Shown: positions 1,557 through 43,316 of the stretch, one piece after another
How positions within the stretch are numbered: the first letter of the stretch is position 1
Layout: each line of letters opens with the position of its first letter
NCBI RefSeq assembly: GCF_016125575.1
Contig: NZ_WGLM01000004.1
Coordinates: 436,501 to 500,500, forward strand
DNA from: Limimaricola sp.
Lineage (GTDB): Bacteria; Pseudomonadota; Alphaproteobacteria; Rhodobacterales; Rhodobacteraceae
Reading direction: 5' to 3'
DNA: 64,000 bases
Position numbers and translations under genes: made by a program
The notes under the pieces: generated by a model
Told to the model about the DNA's origin: nothing
Seen by the model: only the letters and a program-made list of their open reading frames with translations
Database searches by the model: none

Positions 1557-3695
1557 TCAGAGGCCCGGGGCGGTTCCGCTTGCCGGCGGGGCGAAGCGCG
1601 ACAAGAGGCTGGTGACCAACGCGCGGGTCTGGTCGGCTTGCGCCAGCGCGTCCTGCCCCAGCGCAAGGCTGGGTGGCGTCGGAGTGGTGGGCGTCGCGCG
1701 GTCCAGCATCGCCCGGCCGGCTTGCGACAGCAGGGGATCATCACTCTTGGCCAAACGGGCCCAGTCACCCGCCAGCCACGCCGCACCGCCGATGGCAACC
1801 GGGTCCGCGCCCGGTACGGTGGCGCCCTTGCCCGTCGCCTGCCCGTCGATCAACGCGCGCAGACGGCGGCGCTCGACCATGGCCGAGCGATCGGCCTCGT
1901 CCTGCAGCAACGGGCGCGCGGCCGCGCCAAACCCAAGGTCGATCAAGCGCGCGGCGACAAGGTTCTGCGTTGCCGAGTCGACCGGACCGGGCAAACCCGG
2001 CAGACTTTGGCGCAGGAAGGTGGCATCGTCGGCGGCGCGCGTCATCTCGATCACCACGGTGGACCGGGTGCGCCGGGCGAAGCTATCGGGCAACGGTGTG
2101 GCCGCGTCGTTCAGCAGGGCGAGCGCATCGGCATAGCGGCCAAGGCGCGCCAGCAGCGGCGCCTCGGCAGCGGCAAGGCGCGCGGCCTCGGCAGTGCCGC
2201 GGTTCTGGAATCGCAACGTGTCGGCCAAACCGACAAGGCCCGGATCTATTGGTTCACCGGTTTGCAACAACAGGTCAAAAAGCCGGGAAAGGTCCGCAGG
2301 GGGCAGCGTGCTGTCAGTCCGGGCCATCTCGGTCAGGCGGCGGATTGCGGAGTCGGGTGTGCCTGTATCGGCGGCCAGCGCGGCCTCGGCGCTGACCATC
2401 GCGGGGCCGGCAGCGGGGCTGCTGCGGCCAAGCACGTCGGCCGCGGGGCCGGGCAGCCCCGCCACACGCAGCGCATCGGCCAGGCGCGGTGCCAGTTGCG
2501 CCTGCAACAGCGCCGGCAGCGCGCGGTGGACCCGCTGGACGAGGGCGGCGTCGATGGTTCGGCCGCCGATCCTGCCACCGGCTGCGATAAGCGACCAGAA
2601 CGCGATATCACCCGGGCATCCTGTCTGGTCGGCGAGGATAGCGGTTGGTGGCGGGCGCCCGTCGACAACGGCCGCAAGGGCGGCAAGGATGTCGTGGCGG
2701 CGCGAGCGGGTGGCGCCTTGCCGCAGCGCCGCGTCCGCCTCGGCACCGAAGCCGAAAGCGACATAGGTGCGCGCAAGGGCAGTCAGCGCGGCCGGATCGA
2801 CGCGGTCGAGATCGGCCACCAGCGCGCGGCGCCGTGCGCCGAGCTGTGCAACAAACCCCGTATCGTCGACCCAACTGGCGATATCTAATTCGGCATCGCT
2901 CAGGCAGGCACCGCCATCCTCGGTCAGCTGTCGCGGGTTTGGTATCGCGGGCGCGTCACGATCAATGCTGGTTTCAAGGTGGAGGCCCGGCACTTTTGGA
3001 TCGGTCACCAGCGCCGGTGCGGGGGGGGCTGCCGACGGCATCGTCTCGGCGGTTGCCACTATCGGTGTCGGGTCAGCTGCAGGTTCCGCGATGGCTGGCG
3101 GCGCGGCCTTTGTCACCGGCGTCAACAGGCCCTGCGTGGCGGCCCGGGCGATCCCATCGACAATGTCCTGCTGGACCCGGGCCAAACGCTCGGCCTGCAT
3201 GGGAGAGGGGCCAGCATCGAAGGGCAGGCCCGGCGGCATGGGGGTGGCGGCCGCCGACAACACTGGCGGCAAGAGTGGTGTGGCCGAGACGGAATCAAAT
3301 CGCTGTTCGAACCGCCGATCGGTCGGCGGGCCGTCGACGATATCGATCACCAGCCTTTCCGGCCGCCACAGGAATGCGCGCGCATGGCAATCGCAAGCCA
3401 GCGCAAGTTGCAGTTCGCCCGCCGCTGTCGGCATGACATCGCGCAGGCGCGCGCGCGGGATCCGATCAAATATGCCGGCAGGATCGAATCCGTCGGGCGC
3501 AGGATCGATCCGAAGAAGATATCCTTCCGCACCCCGGCCCAACTGCCAGTCAACGCCGGGGGGAAGCGTCAGGACGAGGCGGGAAAACCCCGGATGCTCG
3601 CCGCTGCGAAAGCGCACCGGCTCTGCCACGGCAGCCGACGGGCCGGGCCATGACGCCAACCAGACAAGCGCGGCAAGAAGCGCGAGCCGCGTCAT
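1557..3695 (-). CDS. Uncharacterised exported protein of the flagellar stator operon
   Basis: I do not recognise a named family over the whole 712 residues. A clear signal peptide ends near residue 25 (cleavage around SAAVAEP). Residues 27-125 look like an AMIN-type beta domain: VRFRSGEHPGFSRLVLTLP, then ELQLALACDCHARAF and RLVIDIVDGPP. A Pro/Ala-rich linker follows to about residue 250. The rest is Ala/Leu-rich helix-turn-helix repeats suggestive of a TPR or alpha-solenoid. It overlaps the motA stop by 4 bases (ATGA), so it is coupled to the stator gene. A periplasmic scaffold linking the stator or rod to peptidoglycan is plausible but is inference. Confidence 0.8.
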   Translation of the reverse strand: MTRLALLAALVWLASWPGPSAAVAEPVRFRSGEHPGFSRLVLTLPPGVDWQLGRGAEGYLLRIDPAPDGFDPAGIFDRIPRARLRDVMPTAAGELQLALACDCHARAFLWRPERLVIDIVDGPPTDRRFEQRFDSVSATPLLPPVLSAAATPMPPGLPFDAGPSPMQAERLARVQQDIVDGIARAATQGLLTPVTKAAPPAIAEPAADPTPIVATAETMPSAAPPAPALVTDPKVPGLHLETSIDRDAPAIPNPRQLTEDGGACLSDAELDIASWVDDTGFVAQLGARRRALVADLDRVDPAALTALARTYVAFGFGAEADAALRQGATRSRRHDILAALAAVVDGRPPPTAILADQTGCPGDIAFWSLIAAGGRIGGRTIDAALVQRVHRALPALLQAQLAPRLADALRVAGLPGPAADVLGRSSPAAGPAMVSAEAALAADTGTPDSAIRRLTEMARTDSTLPPADLSRLFDLLLQTGEPIDPGLVGLADTLRFQNRGTAEAARLAAAEAPLLARLGRYADALALLNDAATPLPDSFARRTRSTVVIEMTRAADDATFLRQSLPGLPGPVDSATQNLVAARLIDLGFGAAARPLLQDEADRSAMVERRRLRALIDGQATGKGATVPGADPVAIGGAAWLAGDWARLAKSDDPLLSQAGRAMLDRATPTTPTPPSLALGQDALAQADQTRALVTSLLSRFAPPASGTAPGL

Positions 3696-34714: not shown

Positions 34715-35779
34715 ATGAACCAGGCCGAGGCCAACCGAACCGAGCGGAACCGGGATGCCGGAGCCCCCGTGATGCCGCCTGTCTCGCCCTCGTCCGCGCC
34801 CGACGGCGGCGCAGGTTCGGGCCCGGGTCTGACAGAGGTCGCCGCGGTTGCGCTGGGCATTGCGTGGCTCGTCGCTGCATCGGTGATCTTCATCGTGATG
34901 CCCGGCACCTCTTCCACGACGGCGGTCGATGGGGCGGACCCGTTGCGCTTCGTCATGGTCTTGCTGGCGGTCTTTCTGCCGGTCGCGATGATCTGGGTCG
35001 CCGCAGCCGCTGCACGTTCGGGGCGGATCATGCGTGAGGAATCGCGCCGGCTGCAGGTGGCCATCGACGCCATTCGCAAGGCCTACATCGCTGATCGGCA
35101 GGCGCGTGGCGCGGTGGCCCCGCCCACGACGGTCGAGCGCAAGCTTGACGAGATCGCACAGGCCGCGCGGCAGACCGAATCGACGCTCGCAGTTTTCGCG
35201 TCCAGCCGACCGGCTGCCAGCCGTGCGGTAATCCGCCCCGGCACCCCCGAACCGGCCGAGGAAGAACCGCGCCTGGCGTTGGGCACCTCGTCCGAAGAGA
35301 TGCAGCCGCCGTTGGCGCGGTCCGACCTGATCCGTGCGCTGAACTTTCCCGATACCGATACAGACGAGGTGGGATTTGCAGCGTTGCGGCGCGCCCTGAA
35401 GGACCGGCCCGCACGGCAATTGATCCAGGCAAGCCAGGACGTGCTGACGTTGCTGTCGCAGGATGGCATCTACATGGACGACCTGCGCCCCGATCGCGCC
35501 CGACCGGAAATCTGGCGCCGCTTTGCCGCCGGCGAGCGGGGCCGAGCAGTCGCGGCGCTTGGCGGCGTGCGCGACCGCACCAGTCTTGCCCTCGCCATCG
35601 GGCGGATGCGCGAGGATGCGATCTTTCGCGACGCCGCGCACCATTTCCTGCGCCGCTTCGACCAGATGCTCGTCGCGTTCGAGCCTGAGGCGAGCGACGA
35701 GGATCTTGTTGACCTCTCCGAAACCCGCACCGCAAGGGCCTTCATGCTGCTGGGTCGGGTCACGGGTGCCTTCGACTAA
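34715..35779 (+). CDS. Membrane protein of unknown function linked to greA
   Basis: 354 residues. A Pro/Gly-rich disordered N-terminus is followed by two membrane helices (about residues 41-62 and 79-100). A helical segment with coiled-coil character (residues 105-165) and a helical C-terminal domain come next (LIQASQDVLTLLSQDGIYMDDLRPDR, FRDAAHHFLRRFDQML). I recognise no enzyme motif. GGGACGGGAC precedes the ATG. The position after greA suggests cotranscription. Function unknown. Confidence 0.78.
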   Translation: MNQAEANRTERNRDAGAPVMPPVSPSSAPDGGAGSGPGLTEVAAVALGIAWLVAASVIFIVMPGTSSTTAVDGADPLRFVMVLLAVFLPVAMIWVAAAAARSGRIMREESRRLQVAIDAIRKAYIADRQARGAVAPPTTVERKLDEIAQAARQTESTLAVFASSRPAASRAVIRPGTPEPAEEEPRLALGTSSEEMQPPLARSDLIRALNFPDTDTDEVGFAALRRALKDRPARQLIQASQDVLTLLSQDGIYMDDLRPDRARPEIWRRFAAGERGRAVAALGGVRDRTSLALAIGRMREDAIFRDAAHHFLRRFDQMLVAFEPEASDEDLVDLSETRTARAFMLLGRVTGAFD

Positions 35780-35781
35780 GC

Positions 35782-36366
35782 CTAGGGCATGACCCTACGG
35801 ACCATTGTCGTTGCTGAGCGGAAGCCGAACACATGGTGCAGCATGCCGATGTTGTAATCGTCCACGGCGTGAAAGCCGCGCCGCTCGTATAGGGCCCGCG
35901 CGCGCGGATTGCTGTCGATCACGTCCAGTCGCACCTCGGCGTAGCCGCGCCGCGCCGCCTCGCGCGCGGCCGCCTCCAACAGCAAGGTGCCTACGCCGCG
36001 CCCGCGTGCCTCTGGCGCCACGAAAATACCGTCGAGCAGAAAGCGCGCATCATCGGCATCGCGCTCCAGCATTGTCAGCAGCAGGCTGCGCCAGCCCGCG
36101 CCGAAAAGGCCATAGATCGCCCGCATGTCGCCCAGATCGCCGCCCACCAGCGCGCCCTCGGCGGTCTTGAACCCGACAACGCCCAGCAGGCTGCCATCGC
36201 GATCATGTGCGCTGAAGGCATGATCGGGGCGCAGCACACGGGCGATGAAGGCCATGGCCAGTGGCTCCGGTCCCATTGCCAGCCCCAGCTTTGACCCGAA
36301 AGCGTGCCAGTAAAGGGCGGCGGCCCGGGCACGGTCCCGTTCGGGAATGCCCGGCGTCACGATCAT
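35782..36366 (-). CDS. GNAT-family N-acetyltransferase
   Basis: 194 residues with a complete GNAT acetyl-CoA site: FLLDGIFVAPEARGRGVGTLLLEAA contains the R/Q-x2-G-x-G/A loop, and the C-terminal RLDVIDSNPRARALYERRGF is the usual beta-bulge and helix. The acceptor substrate cannot be told. It overlaps mobA by 4 bases (ATGA), suggesting an operon with molybdenum cofactor maturation. The 3' end stops 2 bases from the preceding convergent gene. Confidence 0.9.
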   Translation of the reverse strand: MIVTPGIPERDRARAAALYWHAFGSKLGLAMGPEPLAMAFIARVLRPDHAFSAHDRDGSLLGVVGFKTAEGALVGGDLGDMRAIYGLFGAGWRSLLLTMLERDADDARFLLDGIFVAPEARGRGVGTLLLEAAAREAARRGYAEVRLDVIDSNPRARALYERRGFHAVDDYNIGMLHHVFGFRSATTMVRRVMP

Positions 36367-36974
36367 GCCAGCGCCAGTGCCAGCGTGCGGGCCACGGCAT
36401 GATCCGCGGGCGTGTTGATGTTGAAGAACGGATCGGGCCCCGATGGGACGCCTTCAAAAGCCGCGCTGGCCGCGCCAATGGCATCGGCAAAGACGCCCAC
36501 GCGCCGGCGCCCCTCGCTTAGCGCCTCGGCCAGTGCCGGGCGAAGGTCGACGTGCCAGAGTGCCGCGACCGGGTGCCGACGACCGCCCGAAGCTGCAACG
36601 GCGATTCGTCGCCCTTCGGTTTCGGCGGCCAGCAGCAGGCGCGGAACAAGGTCGCAAGGCAGGAAAGGCGTATCGCCCGGCACGGTCACCAGATGCGAGG
36701 CACCCTGTGCCGCGGCCCAGTCCAGCCCTGCCAGAACCCCGGCCAAAGGCCCCGCAAGTTCGCCCGGCGCATCCGGCAGAACCGGCAGGCCGTAGGCGGC
36801 AAAGCGCCCCGGATCGCCGTTTGCGTTCAGCGCCAGCGCCGCAACCTGCGGCGAGAAGCGGTCACGAACCTGCCCAAGGACGGTGTCCTTGCCAAGCGGC
36901 AGAAGCACCTTGTCGCCCCCGCCCATCCGCGCCGCAGTTCCCCCGGCAAGGATCACGCCAACGGGGCCGGTCAT
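36363..36974 (-). CDS. mobA: Molybdenum cofactor guanylyltransferase MobA
   Basis: MobA adds GMP to molybdopterin to form the guanine dinucleotide cofactor used by DMSO-reductase-type enzymes. The 203 residues start with LAGGTAARMGGGDK, the nucleotide-binding motif (L-A-G-G-x4-R-M-G-x3-K), and include VTVPGDTPFLPCDLV and FFNINTPAD. I start at the ATG giving MTGPVGVILAGG; a longer frame upstream is not conserved-looking. It is coupled to the GNAT gene by a 4-base overlap. Confidence 0.93.
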   Translation of the reverse strand: MTGPVGVILAGGTAARMGGGDKVLLPLGKDTVLGQVRDRFSPQVAALALNANGDPGRFAAYGLPVLPDAPGELAGPLAGVLAGLDWAAAQGASHLVTVPGDTPFLPCDLVPRLLLAAETEGRRIAVAASGGRRHPVAALWHVDLRPALAEALSEGRRRVGVFADAIGAASAAFEGVPSGPDPFFNINTPADHAVARTLALALA

Positions 36975-37097
36975 CGCAGGGCTCTGCTGCGGGGCAGGGT
37001 GGGGCAGCACATGGCGGCGATCCTCTCTGGCGATTGTCATTCTGTCTGTGCTTGGATAACCGGGCCGGGCCGCATTGCACAACAGGCCGCTCCGCCC

Positions 37098-37808
37098 ATG
37101 ACCGCCCGTCTTCCACGTTCCGCCTATATGCAAGGCTTGCGCGACGGCGCGCCATTTCTGCTGGTCCTGATCCCGTTCTCGTCGCTTTTCGGAATGGTGG
37201 CAGGGCAGGCCGGCCTCGATCTTGCTCAGATAATGGGCTTTTCGGTGCTTGTCATCGCCGGAGCGGCCCAGTTTGCTGCATTGCAGATGATGGTTCAGCA
37301 TGCCTCGATCCCGCTGATCCTGCTTGCCGCGCTGGCCGTGAACCTGCGGATGGCGATGTATTCTGCCGCACTTGTTCCCCATCTGGGATCGGCGCCGCTG
37401 TGGCAAAGGGCGCTGGTGGCCTATGTCAATTTCGACCAGACCTATGCCGTCTCTCTCGCGCATTACGAGGCGAATCCGCGGTTAAGCGTGGCCGAGAAGG
37501 TGGCGTTCTTTCTTGGTGTCGCCACGCCGATCACCCCAGCTTGGGTGGCGATGACGGCGCTGGGCGCTATGGCGGGGGCCGCCGTGCCGGATTGGCTCGC
37601 CCTCGATTTCGCGCTGCCCATCACCTTTCTTGGGTTGCTCGCGCCGATGCTGAGATCGCTGGCCCATGTCGCGGCGGCGGCGACCTCGGTCATTGTCGCG
37701 CTGTTGCTGGCGGGCCTGCCGGCGGGGTTGGGGCTGCTGGTTGCGGCTGCCTGTGCCATGGTCGCGGGCGCCGGTGTCGAGACGTGGATGGAGGGACGAC
37801 GGCCGTGA
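37098..37808 (+). CDS. azlC: AzlC-family branched-chain amino acid exporter subunit
   Basis: 236-residue membrane protein of the AzlC family. Signature stretches are GLRDGAPFLLVLIPFSSLFG, AGAAQFAALQMM and LAVNLRMAMYSAALVPHL. AzlC pairs with the small AzlD to export branched-chain amino acids. The AzlD gene overlaps the stop by 4 bases, which confirms the pair. The ribosome site before the ATG is weak. The long frame extending far upstream is a shadow of mobA. Confidence 0.92.
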   Translation: MTARLPRSAYMQGLRDGAPFLLVLIPFSSLFGMVAGQAGLDLAQIMGFSVLVIAGAAQFAALQMMVQHASIPLILLAALAVNLRMAMYSAALVPHLGSAPLWQRALVAYVNFDQTYAVSLAHYEANPRLSVAEKVAFFLGVATPITPAWVAMTALGAMAGAAVPDWLALDFALPITFLGLLAPMLRSLAHVAAAATSVIVALLLAGLPAGLGLLVAAACAMVAGAGVETWMEGRRP

Positions 37809-38140
37809 CGATGAGCGATGCGGACATCTGGCTGGTCATCGGCCTTCTTGCGGTGGGTACCTACCTGATCCGCTTTTCGTTTCTGGGCCTCATTGGCAGC
37901 CGGCCAATGCCGGCCGCGGTGTTGCGCCTGCTGCGCTTTACGCCGGTTGCGGTGCTGCCGGGGATGGTTGCGCCGCTGGTCCTGTGGCCCGCCGCCACCG
38001 GCGGGCATCCCGACATCGCACGCCTTGCCGCGGCGGCAGCGACGCTGGCCGCGGGCCTGTGGCGGCGCAACACGCTTCTGGCGATCGCGGCCGGCGCGCT
38101 GACGCTTTACGCGGGGCTCTGGCTGTTGCCTACGTCCTGA
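37805..38140 (+). CDS. azlD: AzlD-family exporter subunit
   Basis: 111-residue protein with about four helices: IWLVIGLLAVGTYLIRFSFL, FTPVAVLPGMVAPLV and the end LLAIAAGALTLYAGLWLLP fit AzlD. The GTG at 37805 is chosen over an ATG at 37811 because GGAGGG is 9 bases upstream and GTGA overlaps the azlC stop. The 3' end overlaps the convergent lipoprotein gene by 34 bases. Confidence 0.9.
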   Translation: MTMSDADIWLVIGLLAVGTYLIRFSFLGLIGSRPMPAAVLRLLRFTPVAVLPGMVAPLVLWPAATGGHPDIARLAAAAATLAAGLWRRNTLLAIAAGALTLYAGLWLLPTS

Positions 38141-38751
38141 TCAGAGCGGTGCGGGCGCAGCGTGGTGGTCACACCGGGCAGGGCGCCGAACTCGTCTGCC
38201 AGCCGCCCCGGAAAAAAGGTGGGGGTCAGCCCCTCGAACCCCGGCAGCGCACGCAGGATGCCGACGGTCGCATCCGTACAAAAGCCAGAGCCGACCGCAC
38301 CATGCGCCACCGCCAGTTGCAGCGCGCGCTCGGCCACCGCGGCGGGCACCTCGACGCGCTGCACCTCCAGACCGTCGCCGCCTTGGGCATAGAAGTTTTC
38401 GAAGACGTCGCGGGCCTGTGGTGTGATGCCAAACAGCACATCGTTGCGCTCGGGAATGCCGCTTGCCTTGAAAGAGCCAGAAGGATCGAAGACGACCCGC
38501 TGACTGGCATCGATCATCAGCGCGGTGTGCTGGCCCACGACAGAAGCTGCATCGGTTCGCGTGTAGAGGGTCAGCGCGGGCGGGCCCCTGTCACGGTAAA
38601 CGGCTGCGGCAATCTCGCTTTCCGGGGCGTTGACCGACGGCACAGTCGCGCATCCGGCCACCGCAAGCCCTGTCGTCAACGCAACTGCCCCGCGGATGGT
38701 CCGGCGGCTCAACGCGCCCTGCGCGTCCCGTTGATGGTCGCTTTCCTGCAT
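38107..38751 (-). CDS. Tat-type lipoprotein of unknown function, copy B
   Basis: 214 residues. The N-terminus has a twin-arginine SRRTIRG, a hydrophobic stretch and a lipobox VAGC (C34), so it is probably a Tat-exported lipoprotein. The mature part shares a clear pattern with the upstream neighbour: GPPALTLYTRT, GQHTALMIDASQRVVFDPSGSF, IPERNDVLFGITP and GFCTDATVGILRALPGFE. A conserved His (H75) and Cys (C158) could be a papain-like or permuted NlpC/P60 dyad; that is inference. It overlaps azlD at the 3' end. Confidence 0.8.
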   Translation of the reverse strand: MQESDHQRDAQGALSRRTIRGAVALTTGLAVAGCATVPSVNAPESEIAAAVYRDRGPPALTLYTRTDAASVVGQHTALMIDASQRVVFDPSGSFKASGIPERNDVLFGITPQARDVFENFYAQGGDGLEVQRVEVPAAVAERALQLAVAHGAVGSGFCTDATVGILRALPGFEGLTPTFFPGRLADEFGALPGVTTTLRPHRSDQDVGNSQSPA

Positions 38752-38809
38752 CGGACCCGTCCGCCGCAGCCTGCAATGGATACAAGCCTAGCCGCGGCCG
38801 GTCACGATG

Positions 38810-39472
38810 TCACCCGGGCTGACCTGCCGCCGCACCTTGCGGCCCGCCCGGCCCATTACCATTGCCGGTCTGCAGCGCCCGTTCGATCTGGCGCAGGGCG
38901 ATGGATTTGTCATCGCTGTCGGTCTCGCGATACTCGTGCGTGACGACGCCGGGAAAGCGCGCCAGCTGCTTTTCGAGATTGTCGGGAAACCACGTCGAAT
39001 GGATCGATTCGAAGCCCGGCAGCCGTTTGAGGATGCCGGAGGTCGCCAGCGTGCAATGCGCTTTGGCCACCGGGCCATTGGCCAGCGCCAGTTGCAGTGC
39101 CATCTCGGCCACCTCGGGGCTGACGTCAATTTCCTGGCTCACGGTGTAGTAGGTGATCCGCGAATGATACGAGATGTAATACTGCTCGATCCGCGGTGTG
39201 ATGCCGAAAAGCACGTCATCTCGTTCCGGGATCTCGGGCACGCTGAAAGATCCCGCCGGATCGAAGATCACGCGCTGGCTGGCGTTGATCATCAGCGACG
39301 AATGCGCGCCGTTGCCCGATCCCACGTTTTTCATCGTGAACAACGTCAGCGAGGGTGGGCCGTCGAAATGGTAAAAGGCCCGTGCAACCGCTTCGTCAGG
39401 CGCCCAGACATGCTGGGCACCGCATCCGGCAAGGGCAAGCGGCATCCCGATGAGAAATGTACGTCGATGCAT
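38810..39472 (-). CDS. Tat-type lipoprotein of unknown function, copy A
   Basis: 220 residues beginning MHRRTFLIGMPLALAGC, a twin-arginine signal with lipobox cysteine C17. Mature-part motifs parallel those of copy B: GPPSLTLFTMK, GAHSSLMINASQRVIFDPAGSF, IPERDDVLFGITP and AHCTLATSGILKRLPGFES, with H57 and C140 at matching places. GAAAGG precedes the ATG. The C-terminus is Gly/Gln-rich and low complexity. It lies between its paralogue and the aa3 subunit IV gene, all on one strand, likely as an operon. Function unknown. Confidence 0.8.
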   Translation of the reverse strand: MHRRTFLIGMPLALAGCGAQHVWAPDEAVARAFYHFDGPPSLTLFTMKNVGSGNGAHSSLMINASQRVIFDPAGSFSVPEIPERDDVLFGITPRIEQYYISYHSRITYYTVSQEIDVSPEVAEMALQLALANGPVAKAHCTLATSGILKRLPGFESIHSTWFPDNLEKQLARFPGVVTHEYRETDSDDKSIALRQIERALQTGNGNGPGGPQGAAAGQPG

Positions 39473-39494
39473 CGGAACGCCTTTCGCAGCAGGG

Positions 39495-39629
39495 TCAGCC
39501 GTTGACGAGGGCAAGGAAGATCAGAACGCACAGGATCACGATGACCCCGCGTGACACGAACCAGACGAAACCGTCGAAGGTTTTCTCGTGGGTACGGATG
39601 TCCATCTCGCCGTGCTTGTACTCCGCCAT
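39495..39629 (-). CDS. aa3-type cytochrome c oxidase subunit IV (44 aa)
   Basis: 44-residue microprotein starting MAEYKHGEMDIRTHEKTF, followed by a single membrane helix VWFVSRGVIVILCVLIFLAL. This matches the subunit IV of Paracoccus-type aa3 oxidase, one helix that packs on the side of the complex and is not needed for catalysis. A strong AGGAGAG precedes the ATG. The main oxidase genes are not in the window. It heads the lipoprotein pair. Confidence 0.9.
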   Translation of the reverse strand: MAEYKHGEMDIRTHEKTFDGFVWFVSRGVIVILCVLIFLALVNG

Positions 39630-39712
39630 CGCTCTCTCCTGTCGCAAATCGGGTTTTGCCGTGGGGATAGACGATTGAAACGCCGCTGTCACGCCTGCGT
39701 GTGCCGCCCGCG

Positions 39713-40174
39713 TCACAATGGCAGGGCCGTCGTGTCCTTGATTTCCTCCATCACGAAACTGGCCGAGATGTCCGAAAGCGGCACCTTGTCGATCAGCCGC
39801 TTGTAAAAGGCGTCATAGGCCGGCACGTCGGCCACCCGCACCCGCAGCACGTAGTCCAGATCGCCGGTCATCCGGTAGGCGCCCACCACCTCGGGCAGGG
39901 CGCGCAAGGCCGACTGGAACCGCTCCATCCAGCCCGGCTCATGCGCATTGGTGCGGATCAGGACCATCACGCTCAGCGGGCAGCCCACCTTCTCGGGCGC
40001 GACCAGCGCGACGCGACCGCGGATCACCCCCGCCGTCTCCATCGCCTTGATCCGCCGCCAGCAGGCATTGCGCGACAGTGCCACCCGCGCGCCGATCTCG
40101 TCGATGGGCAGGCTGGCATCGCGTTGCAGGATGGCCAGGATTCGCCGGTCTATGATATCAAGATCATGCTCCAT
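39713..40174 (-). CDS. Lrp/AsnC-family transcriptional regulator
   Basis: 153 residues: an N-terminal helix-turn-helix (DIIDRRILAILQRDASLPIDEIGARVALSRNACWRRI) and a C-terminal RAM ligand domain (PEVVGAYRMTGDLDYVLRVRV). It binds amino acids or similar ligands in this family. There is no ribosome site in front of the ATG. A palindrome begins 4 bases upstream and a direct repeat further up, so autoregulation is likely. The divergent DUF6356 gene could be another target. Confidence 0.93.
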   Translation of the reverse strand: MEHDLDIIDRRILAILQRDASLPIDEIGARVALSRNACWRRIKAMETAGVIRGRVALVAPEKVGCPLSVMVLIRTNAHEPGWMERFQSALRALPEVVGAYRMTGDLDYVLRVRVADVPAYDAFYKRLIDKVPLSDISASFVMEEIKDTTALPL

Positions 40175-40177
40175 GAC

Positions 40178-40217
40178 GGGATATTATCCCAACCTGACGC
40201 GCATATATAGGGATATT
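40178..40217. promoter_or_regulatory. Likely operator of the Lrp-type regulator
   Basis: GGGATA-T-TATCCC (40178-40190) is a perfect palindrome just before the lrp start. GGGATATT recurs at 40210-40217, 32 bases from the first copy, about three helical turns. Between them TATATA (40203-40208) may be a -10 element. This layout suits wrapping by an Lrp octamer. Confidence 0.6.
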
Positions 40218-40282
40218 TGAGACATCTTTACCGGCACACTCGGTTAGGATTCCACGCAAGCAAACACTGCAGGAGGCCGCCG

Positions 40283-40531
40283 ATGTCCGACACCACGCCC
40301 AGCTCCGCCCGCGCCGGCACCTTTGCCCGGTTGTTCCTCGATCATCCCGCCTCGGTGGACGAGACCTATTTCCAGCATATGCGATTCGCCGGCTGGTTCT
40401 CGTTCTGGCTGGCCACGGCGGCGGGCGCGGCGCTGTTGCACGCGATCGTCCCTGCGGTCTGCGAAACGACGGCCAGCCGCATCATCCGCCGCCTTTACGC
40501 CCGGATCGAGAATCGCCACGCGGCGCAATAG
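40283..40531 (+). CDS. DUF6356-family small membrane protein
   Basis: 82 residues. The pattern LFLDHPASVDETYFQHMRFAGWFSFWL followed by a single helix and a basic C-terminus fits DUF6356, which is recalled from memory. Function is unknown. A good CAGGAGG precedes the ATG. It is divergent from the Lrp gene and may be under its control. It ends 50 bases before the convergent hydrolase gene. Confidence 0.8.
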   Translation: MSDTTPSSARAGTFARLFLDHPASVDETYFQHMRFAGWFSFWLATAAGAALLHAIVPAVCETTASRIIRRLYARIENRHAAQ

Positions 40532-40581
40532 GCCAGCTATCAAATCCGGCCCATGGACGCGGACCTGCACGCTGCTGAGAG

Positions 40582-41619
40582 CTAAAGCGCCTGCCAGCGC
40601 CACGCATCATCTTCGGCCAGCCAGCGCCGCGCGCGCCCGGCCTGGTGCAGGTGGTTCAGGTGTGCCACCGTCTCGGCCAGAGCCAGACCAAAGACGTTCT
40701 CCCCGATCTCGCGCTTGAAGAGCGGTGCGAAGCAATCCACCGCCTTGCGCGGCGTGGCCAGGTGCGCTGTCAGCCGCGCCAGCGCGCCGTGATGGTTGTC
40801 GATCAACTGCTGCATCCGCACCGGCAGCCCGAGGAAGGGCAGCTTGTGTCCACCCAGCACCAGCTGATCCTCGCGCGCATGCGGGGCCAGCCGCGCGCAG
40901 GCGGCCAGCCAGTCGCTGACAGGGTCGGCTTCGGGTTCGGTCGGGTAGACGCCGATATTGGGGCTGATGCCCGGCAATATCTGGTCGCCGCCGATGACCA
41001 GCCCGTCGTCGCGGCTCCAGAAGGTCGCGTGTTCGGGCGCGTGGCCGTCGCCCATCCGCACGTCCCAGTCGCGCCCGCCCATGCGGATGACCTGCCCCTC
41101 GACCAGCCGGACATAGCCCAGCGGCAGCGGATCGACGCAATCGGCAAAGTTGAACGGCCGCTCCGCCTCGCGCCGGGCGCGCAGGGTCGGGTCCATCCCG
41201 GTGCGGGCATAGAAGGCGCGGCTTTCGGGCGGCAGCACGGCTTGCTCGTCCAGCACCAGCATCCGCGTCATCAGCCACGGGGTGCGCGGCATCCACAATT
41301 CGGCACCGCGCGCCACGAACCAGCCCGCAAGGCCCACATGGTCGGGGTGGTGATGGGTGACGATCAGCCGCGTCACCGGCCGGCCCGCCAGCGGTCCGTG
41401 CGCCATGACGCTTTCCCAGATATCGCGGGTTCTGGCATTGCCCAGCCCGGTATCGATCACCGTCCAGCTGTCACCATCGTCCAGCGCGAAGACGTTGACG
41501 TGGTCCAGCGCCATCGGCAGCGGCAGCCGCAGCCACAGTACCCCCGGCGCGATCTCTGTCGCCGCGCCAGGCGCAGGCGCCTCGGCATGGGGAAATCGCA
41601 GGGGCTGGGCGGTGTCCAT
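40582..41619 (-). CDS. Metallo-beta-lactamase-fold hydrolase
   Basis: 345 residues with the MBL zinc motif THHHPDH, a later GDGHAPEH and GGDQIL, and the ligand residues expected for two metals. It is followed by a helical C-terminal domain (LAHLNHLHQAGRARRW) typical of LACTB2-like hydrolases that act on thioesters or nucleic acids. The ATG overlaps the acyl-CoA dehydrogenase stop (TGATG), which suggests it serves the same pathway, perhaps as a thioesterase; that is inference. Confidence 0.88.
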   Translation of the reverse strand: MDTAQPLRFPHAEAPAPGAATEIAPGVLWLRLPLPMALDHVNVFALDDGDSWTVIDTGLGNARTRDIWESVMAHGPLAGRPVTRLIVTHHHPDHVGLAGWFVARGAELWMPRTPWLMTRMLVLDEQAVLPPESRAFYARTGMDPTLRARREAERPFNFADCVDPLPLGYVRLVEGQVIRMGGRDWDVRMGDGHAPEHATFWSRDDGLVIGGDQILPGISPNIGVYPTEPEADPVSDWLAACARLAPHAREDQLVLGGHKLPFLGLPVRMQQLIDNHHGALARLTAHLATPRKAVDCFAPLFKREIGENVFGLALAETVAHLNHLHQAGRARRWLAEDDAWRWQAL

Positions 41620-43316
41620 CACGCGGCCAGATCGTCTGGCGTGATCTCCATCAGCCCGTCTGCGCCGGCGCGAACATGTGCGATCAGCCCGGCATGTTCC
41701 GGCAGCATCCGGGTAATGAAGAAGGCGGCCATCCGCGCGCGGCCCGCATCGCCTCGCCGGGCGGCGGCAAGGTGCGCCTCGGCCCCCAGCACCAGCGCAA
41801 ACGCCCGCAAGTATGGCACCGCGCCCGCGAATCGGTCGGTCATGTCCTGCGTCACCAGCCACTCGGTGGTTTCGCGCAGCGATTCGGCCGCGTCCCACAC
41901 CGCGCCGGCCATATCCGGCAGTTCGGCCCGCGCCGCCTCGGCCCCGGTTTGCACCTCGTCCAGAAGCCTGAACGCGGCCTCGCCCCGGTCCATCATCTTG
42001 CGGCCGACAAGGTCCATCGCCTGGATGCCGTTGGTGCCCTCGTAGATCGCCGTCACCCGCACGTCGCGCAGGTATTGCGCCGCGCCCGTCTCCTCGATGA
42101 AGCCCATTCCGCCATGCACCTGCACGCCAAGGCTGGCCACCTCGATGCCGGTATCGGTGCCAAAGGCCTTGGCGATCGGCGTCAGCAGCGCCGCCCGCGC
42201 GGCCCAGCCCGCCTCGCCCGTGGCATGGCTCATGTCGATCGCCACCGCGCATTTCAGCGCGATCGCGCGGGCGGCAAAAACCTGCGCCTTCATGTGCGCC
42301 AGCATCCGCCGCACGTCGGCGTGTTCCACGATCGTGCCGGTTCCGCCCGCCTTGCCCTGCACCCGGCCCATCGCATAGGCCAGCGCGTGCTGATAGGCGC
42401 CCTCGGCCGCGCCCACGCCCTGCACGCCCACGCCCAGCCGGGCGTTGTTCATCATCGTGAACATCGCCGCCATGCCGCCATGCGCCTCGCCCACCAGCCA
42501 GCCGGTTGCCCCCTCGTAGGCCATCACCGCCGTGGGCGAGCCGTGCAGGCCCATCTTGTGCTCCAGGCTGACGACGCGCAGCGCGTTGCGCGCGCCAAGG
42601 CTACCATCGGCATTCGGGATGATCTTGGGCACCATGAACAGGCTGATCCCCTTGGTCCCCGGCACCCCGTCCGGCAGTCGCGCCAGCACGAGGTGGCAGA
42701 CGTTCTCGGTGAAATCGTTGTCGGCCCAGCTGATGTAGATCTTCTGGCCAGTGATGGCGTAGGTGCCGTCGCCGTTGGGCTCGGCCTTGGTGCGCAACGC
42801 GCCTACGTCGCTGCCGGCCTGCGGTTCGGTCAGGTTCATCGTGCCGCACCATTCGCCCGAGATCAGCTTTGGCAGGTAGGTTTCCTTCAGCGCGTCGCTG
42901 GCATGATGTTCCAGCGCCTCGATCTGGCCCTGGCTCATCAGTGGGTTCAACTGCAGGGCAAGGCAGGCGCCGGCCATCATGTCGTTGACGGCGGTGGTCA
43001 GTGCCATCGGTAGGCCCATGCCGCCATGCGCGGGATCGGCTGACATGCCCAGCCAGCCGCCCGTCGCGATCGCGCGGTAGCCATCGGCAAAGCCGGGCGA
43101 GGTGCGCACGACACCGTTTTCCAGCCGCGCCGGGTGGGTGTCGCCCGCCCGTTGCAGCGGCGCCAGCACCTCGTCGCAGACCCGCCCCGCCTCGGTCAAG
43201 ATCGCCTCCACGGTCTCGGCGCCGGCCTCGGCAAACCGGTCGGTGGCGGCGACGGCGGGATAGCCCGCGATGTCCAGCAGAAGGCGGAACTCGGCGATTG
43301 GCGAACGGAAGGGCAT
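41619..43316 (-). CDS. Acyl-CoA dehydrogenase (large, DmdC-like)
   Basis: 565 residues, longer than short-chain ACADs and of the DmdC or FadE-like size. It has MNLTEPQAGSDVGAL, IYISWADNDF, FIEETGAAQYLRDVR and the catalytic base Glu in YEGTNGIQ. It oxidises acyl-CoA, passing electrons to ETF and then to the ETF-QO in this window. The substrate cannot be set from sequence; a methylmercaptopropionyl-CoA enzyme (DmdC) is one option. AGGACACC precedes the ATG. It is coupled to the metallo-hydrolase gene. Confidence 0.92.
   Translation of the reverse strand: MPFRSPIAEFRLLLDIAGYPAVAATDRFAEAGAETVEAILTEAGRVCDEVLAPLQRAGDTHPARLENGVVRTSPGFADGYRAIATGGWLGMSADPAHGGMGLPMALTTAVNDMMAGACLALQLNPLMSQGQIEALEHHASDALKETYLPKLISGEWCGTMNLTEPQAGSDVGALRTKAEPNGDGTYAITGQKIYISWADNDFTENVCHLVLARLPDGVPGTKGISLFMVPKIIPNADGSLGARNALRVVSLEHKMGLHGSPTAVMAYEGATGWLVGEAHGGMAAMFTMMNNARLGVGVQGVGAAEGAYQHALAYAMGRVQGKAGGTGTIVEHADVRRMLAHMKAQVFAARAIALKCAVAIDMSHATGEAGWAARAALLTPIAKAFGTDTGIEVASLGVQVHGGMGFIEETGAAQYLRDVRVTAIYEGTNGIQAMDLVGRKMMDRGEAAFRLLDEVQTGAEAARAELPDMAGAVWDAAESLRETTEWLVTQDMTDRFAGAVPYLRAFALVLGAEAHLAAARRGDAGRARMAAFFITRMLPEHAGLIAHVRAGADGLMEITPDDLAA

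Follow-up and report, generated by a model that had tools for sequence, protein, structure and literature searches.

A Rhodobacteraceae lipoprotein family with a predicted permuted NlpC/P60-like fold, encoded beside an oxidase subunit IV gene and on copper-resistance islands

A lipoprotein gene pair next to aa3 oxidase subunit IV

In the window, the whole 64,000-nucleotide stretch of Limimaricola sp. DNA analysed here, two adjacent lipoprotein open reading frames (genes A and B) lie on the minus strand next to the gene for an aa3-type cytochrome c oxidase subunit IV (Table 1). The product of this short neighbour matched COX4_pro_2 (E 4.2e-12, Pfam scan), in agreement with the preliminary description, and its gene lies upstream of gene A across a gap of 22 bp, the two probably forming one transcription unit. 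Both lipoprotein frames had also been placed correctly in that description: every motif that it quoted is present in the two proteins, and the positions that it gave for a His (H57/H75) and a Cys (C140/C158) were right, with their codons now located. Gene B and the convergent azlD overlap at their 3' ends over approximately 34 bases (38107-38140), and a gene for a DUF6356 protein (40217-40531, plus strand) is divergent from the Lrp/AsnC-type regulator gene.

Table 1. Features of the locus, with coordinates counted from the first letter of the window
Feature	Coordinates	Strand	Remark
azlD	37808-38140	plus	convergent; member of conserved chromosomal block
Gene B	38107-38751	minus	214 aa; second copy, same predicted fold as gene A
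Gene B Cys158 codon	38278-38280	minus	
Gene B Asp89 codon	38485-38487	minus	
Gene B His75 codon	38527-38529	minus	
Gene A	38810-39472	minus	220 aa lipoprotein; ordinary family copy, permuted NlpC/P60-like domain (predicted)
Gene A Cys140 codon (mature Cys124)	39053-39055	minus	candidate nucleophile near helix start; 100/100 relatives
Gene A Asp71 codon (mature Asp55)	39260-39262	minus	candidate third catalytic residue; 99/100 relatives
Gene A His57 codon (mature His41)	39302-39304	minus	candidate catalytic His; 100/100 relatives
COX4_pro_2 gene	39495-39629	minus	44-aa aa3-type cytochrome c oxidase subunit IV; PF07835
Lrp/AsnC-type regulator	39713-40174	minus	upstream of subunit IV; in block at 16/68 loci

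Gene A encodes a good RRTFL Tat motif and an LAGC lipobox, its mature part starting at Cys17, whereas the arginine pair of gene B (SRRTIRG) stands in a poor Tat context with a VAGC lipobox. Amongst 100 relatives, the lipobox was recognised by pattern in 99, the remaining one reading LMGC, but twin arginines were present in only 45-54, and many orthologues carry short plain Sec lipoprotein signals. Since approximately half of the relatives are devoid of twin arginines, export in folded form by Tat, initially put forward for the two proteins, is not a defining property of the family, although gene A itself has the motif.

Single-sequence search detected the family in 163 of 198 Rhodobacteraceae genomes, and profile search in 194 of 197 genomes from the order, all of them members of Rhodobacteraceae; a class-wide sample yielded five of 385 genomes, each again from this family. 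The lipoprotein gene is near-universal in Rhodobacteraceae in the wide (GTDB) sense, was not found outside as far as searched, and occurs as one copy per genome in most genomes. Close to universal in a major marine bacterial family, it is nevertheless without a model in the curated libraries searched, with Pfam, NCBIfam and PHROGs scans returning chance-level matches only. Sequence searches of the PDB gave chlamydial Dub1 (E 0.15-0.19) and, with the family profile, unrelated proteins, all of which were taken as chance matches.

Predicted fold and conserved residues

AlphaFold2 models of the mature proteins, built with 22 sequences, were confident for both gene A (pLDDT 91.3, pTM 0.86) and gene B (pLDDT 86.7, pTM 0.85). 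The best VIA-align rows for both models were all permuted NlpC/P60 proteins, unrelated rows having Z < 4. Gene A matched TseH (6v98; Z 8.8, rmsd 3.8, 132 aligned) and B. cereus 3kw0 (Z 6.7, rmsd 3.8, 127 aligned), followed by the PPPDE proteins 2wp7 and 3ebq (Z 3.8 and 3.7), and gene B matched TseH (Z 10.5, rmsd 3.9, 133 aligned), YiiX 2if6 (Z 8.6, rmsd 3.7, 129 aligned) and 3kw0 (Z 7.7, rmsd 3.7, 126 aligned), after which Z dropped to 3.7. All three of TseH, YiiX and 3kw0 belong to the permuted NlpC/P60 proteins, whose core is also present in PPPDE1 (PMC3142127; PMC12994826). Foldseek against the PDB and viral models found no significant match, so we base the fold assignment on the VIA-align rows and the agreement of the two models. 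The Z of 8.8 for gene A is near the chance range, but the 10.5 of gene B and the agreement of the rows argue otherwise. Both proteins are predicted to contain a papain-like core in permuted order, with the His in an N-terminal beta part and the Cys in a C-terminal helical part; the permuted papain or NlpC/P60-like fold proposed from the letters is thus supported by confident models and their top matches.

Residue conservation, counted over 100 distinct relatives in gene A mature numbering, singled out His41 and Cys124 (100/100 each), which lie 83 residues apart, and Asp55 (99/100), which by sequence position is at His41 +14. The His and Cys highlighted in the preliminary description are invariant, rather than varying freely. 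Asp70 and Gly39 were equally constant (100/100 each), as nearly were His87 (99/100), Arg89 (99/100) and Gln97 (98/100). The triad of BcPPNE (3kw0) consists of His49, Glu64 and Cys154, with Glu64 15 residues past His49; the same order His-acid-Cys and the similar spacing in our family argue for its placement in the permuted NlpC/P60 fold, and the invariant Asp could complete a candidate catalytic triad. In the pattern of conservation, His, Asp and Cys behave as an active site would, and the YHxR motif as a putative substrate- or partner-binding part that may be lost in second copies. Gene B is the only one of the 100 sequences without His87, and has Gln for Arg89; it keeps His/Asp/Cys but has lost YHxR; the remote second copy in genome G653 likewise keeps His, Asp-Pro-Ala-Gly and Cys, and lost YHxR too. 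This very remote member (2408-3115, minus strand, of its own locus) lies upstream of a subunit IV gene, and its Pfam scan gave chance-level matches only.

A non-catalytic structural or regulatory lipoprotein, in which fold and residues are kept for stability or partner binding, would accommodate several of these observations. The signature tyrosine of NlpC/P60 proteins is not evident, there being no conserved Tyr within 27 residues before Cys124 (Tyr83 is conserved elsewhere), loss of the gene is tolerated in some genomes, and the proteins are not known to have an activity. This role nevertheless appears quite improbable, given that His and Cys are fully invariant at the positions of the catalytic pair in permuted relatives, even in the second copy of G653.

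Genes A and B represent a genuine uncharacterised family inside a known superfamily, from whose described branches it can be distinguished. YaeF/YiiX-like proteins (PF05708, Peptidase_C92; YiiX 2if6, BcPPNE 3kw0) are alike in predicted fold (Z 6.7-8.6) and have the His-acid-Cys order in common, with a His-acid spacing of 14 here against 15 there. However, they show no sequence match to the family, the Pfam cut-off being unreached by genes A, B or any of 47 relatives and the HHalign comparison being at shuffle level and not significant (10/120 shuffles reach the score); in addition, their tyrosine is not evident here, and our family comprises lipoproteins confined to one bacterial family. A Peptidase_C92 (YiiX-type) gene is found elsewhere in the same Limimaricola genome, outside the window (G000:C4:805398-805826). 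Lnb/DUF4105 (PF13387, Lnb_N), the Bacteroides lipoprotein N-acyltransferase, belongs to the same superfamily, and a profile of 108 family sequences aligned with Lnb_N over 141 columns, His on His (GHT-type) and Cys on Cys (NC-type), in a weak match of HHalign probability 3% whose score was equalled by 2/250 column shuffles; the Pfam cut-off was again unreached by genes A, B or 47 relatives, and the Lnb_N loci fetched contain much longer frames. TseH (DUF6695), a permuted NlpC/P60 type VI effector and the best structural match for both genes, differs in sharing 5% identity and in acting as an effector in conflict contexts, whereas the family here is a core lipoprotein gene. With this family, the superfamily, recently found to include lipoprotein N-acyltransferases and phospholipases, gains a lipoprotein-anchored branch.

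The oxidase neighbourhood and second copies

Subunit IV was directly upstream of the lipoprotein gene in 67 of 68 chromosomal-type loci, making it the best-kept neighbour, and this adjacency persists at loci that lost most of the remaining block genes. Other members over the 68 loci are genes for a metallo-lactamase-like protein (n = 58), acyl-CoA dehydrogenase (n = 54), azlD/azlC (n = 54), DUF6173 (n = 48) and mobA (n = 45). In the Rhodobacteraceae block (34715-43316 of the window; also locus L126), acyl-CoA dehydrogenase, metallo-lactamase-like, (Lrp), DUF6173, subunit IV and lipoprotein genes are followed by convergent azlD/azlC, fdhD and mobA; in the window, no DUF6173 gene occurs between the Lrp gene and subunit IV. 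Literature searches on the subunit IV gene and its neighbours returned nothing direct.

The linkage to the oxidase noted at the outset holds as adjacency, but a functional partnership is weakened, as subunit IV is retained in 14 of the 17 genomes that have no lipoprotein gene and island copies stand without it. At two such loci (L172, L173) the lipoprotein gene is cleanly absent between subunit IV and azlD, and the idea that the lipoprotein is always tied to the oxidase was rejected on this survival of subunit IV; the link looks like a conserved operon rather than a strict partnership. At three further loci without the lipoprotein (L170, L174, L177), an apparent transhydrogenase alpha (pntA-type) gene, judged by eye, follows subunit IV.

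The aa3 oxidase is itself a copper enzyme, and the proteins might accordingly serve copper supply or assembly for this oxidase, or envelope copper handling, in which case His and Cys would bind metal instead of taking part in catalysis. The near-constant adjacency of subunit IV and the presence of SCO and PCu(A)C genes beside second copies on two plasmids speak for such a role. We nonetheless regard it as rather unlikely, because subunit IV persists after clean deletion of the lipoprotein gene, because it is not seen near the island copies, and because a single His and a single Cys separated by 83 residues, together with an invariant Asp and a papain-type fold, fit an active site better.

Genes A and B had been described as paralogues forming an enzyme pair. 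They are tandem homologues, 44% identical between the mature proteins (46-47% in genome searches) and far above chance, but a local origin is improbable: in the tree, gene B groups with Yoonia and Loktanella orthologues (100/86), within a set of nine (99/89). Local duplication was rejected on this placement, with the caution that the gene B branch is long (0.91 versus a median of 0.25). Gene B was probably acquired from a relative and then changed fast, subject to the same long-branch caution. Since it retains the same centre but an altered YHxR, it perhaps acts on another substrate. Tandem pairs are rare in other genomes, and the pair is a local oddity, most genomes having one copy; doublings were seen elsewhere in tandem (G169) and flanking subunit IV on both sides (G653).

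Copies on copper-resistance islands and the proposed function

Most second copies are without an oxidase gene; they lie on copper-resistance islands, with spare genes for Lgt, Lnt, L,D-transpeptidase, PBP2 and Dsb alongside. None of the 12 second-copy loci first examined had a subunit IV gene nearby. Neighbours included multicopper oxidase, L,D-transpeptidases, DsbB, Lgt and a P-type ATPase with a heavy-metal-binding domain at one locus (L129), ScsC/DsbA, DUF411, multicopper oxidase and a PBP transpeptidase at another (L133), and integrase, L,D-transpeptidase and DUF411 at a third (L127); within the L129 and L133 groups, the same neighbours were common at protein level. A multicopper oxidase gene also stands beside the second copy on a contig of genome G166, and the second copy of G650 has DUF2927 and YjbH neighbours, with no copper genes in the stretch examined.

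In a plasmid collection, 39 records contained the family, three of which are large replicons; the Ruegeria TM1040 record appears to be the ordinary subunit IV locus L109. Annotation was consulted for six plasmids (D. shibae pDSHI03, Salipiger pTPRO2, Neotabrizicola, two Gemmobacter and one Sulfitobacter), and all six encode multicopper oxidase and L,D-transpeptidase, with lnt in four, lgt in two, mrdA (PBP2) in two and SCO with PCu(A)C in two. Island copies occupy three separate places among the chromosomal copies in the tree, and capture by islands therefore occurred at least three times. Plasmids bearing Lgt are more numerous (129 records, compared with 39 for the family), so that islands of this kind carry the family only optionally. 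We consider the copper-island neighbourhood the best functional clue. Copper impairs lipoprotein acylation in E. coli (PMC6538781) and inhibits LD-transpeptidases (PMC9302775), and it has already been argued to be a selective force for new lipoprotein acylation systems, including LnsA, a permuted NlpC/P60 protein (PMC7387801). Repeated capture of the family beside lipoprotein and peptidoglycan maturation enzymes thereby offers a testable handle on the envelope processes that copper damages.

From the lipoprotein signal, the predicted fold, the three conserved residues and the recurrence on copper islands, all obtained by computation, we infer a Cys nucleophile, a thioester intermediate, an acyl substrate and copper sensitivity. 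A cysteine enzyme whose targets are acyl groups on lipids or lipoproteins of the envelope is the most likely product. Activation by the His would allow the Cys to attack an acyl carbonyl in a membrane lipid or in a lipoprotein, giving a thioester from which the acyl group would be hydrolysed or transferred in the manner of a phospholipase or acyltransferase (YiiX-, LRAT-, Lnb- or LnsA-like). Work through an exposed thiol would make the enzyme a plausible copper target, which would account for recurrent spare copies on islands, alongside the spare genes for Lgt, Lnt, L,D-transpeptidase, PBP2 and Dsb. The chromosomal copy is probably co-transcribed with oxidase subunit IV without being strictly tied to it. 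Envelope lipoproteins with a permuted NlpC/P60 Cys/His/Asp domain, an acyl-group activity, a copper-targeted thiol and spare island copies form the best explanation at hand, and one held tentatively, at somewhat below an even chance. Its broader version, in which a lineage-wide acyl enzyme of this kind tailors lipoproteins or lipids, is poisoned by copper and has been recruited repeatedly to islands as a copper-tolerant spare, is conceivable but doubtful.

Permuted NlpC/P60 members with acyl-group activity have been reported (PMC3142127; PMC12994826), including LnsA of Staphylococcus aureus, which acts in lipoprotein N-acylation with LnsB and for which copper was the proposed selective force (PMC7387801); LnsA is, however, from a Gram-positive organism and needs LnsB, and the likeness is drawn from its published description. 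Lit2, outlined in the same source as part of Listeria copper-resistance elements, is a copper-linked, mobile version of a gene for lipoprotein modification (PMC7387801), but it is another enzyme, an intramolecular transacylase, and resembles our island copies by context only.

The association with islands places the family in a copper context but does not identify an acyl substrate, and the same islands hold peptidoglycan and redox genes. Alternatively, the proteins might resemble canonical NlpC/P60 enzymes and trim peptidoglycan or proteins of the envelope as cysteine peptidases or amidases, which would suit an island cell-wall set with L,D-transpeptidases and PBP2. L,D-transpeptidase is the most constant island neighbour (6/6 plasmids, against 4/6 for lnt and 2/6 for lgt) and so keeps this activity in contention; an M23 peptidase gene also adjoins the family gene on the two Gemmobacter plasmids, and TseH was originally proposed to be an endopeptidase (PMC12994826). 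Such an activity is nevertheless unlikely, as TseH showed phospholipase activity in one assay (PMC12994826), no cell-wall-binding domain is seen in these proteins of approximately 200 aa, and the permuted order, in characterised members, is tied to a hydrophobic pocket and acyl substrates (PMC3142127). Between the two, we prefer the acyl-group enzyme, given the activity of characterised permuted members on acyl groups and the presence of lgt and lnt on several islands.

Islands on Rhodobacterales plasmids (L148-L153) carry apparent spare lgt, lnt, several L,D-transpeptidase, PBP2, DsbA/DsbB and CcdA genes, and such spare envelope-maturation gene sets on copper islands look like a general pattern.
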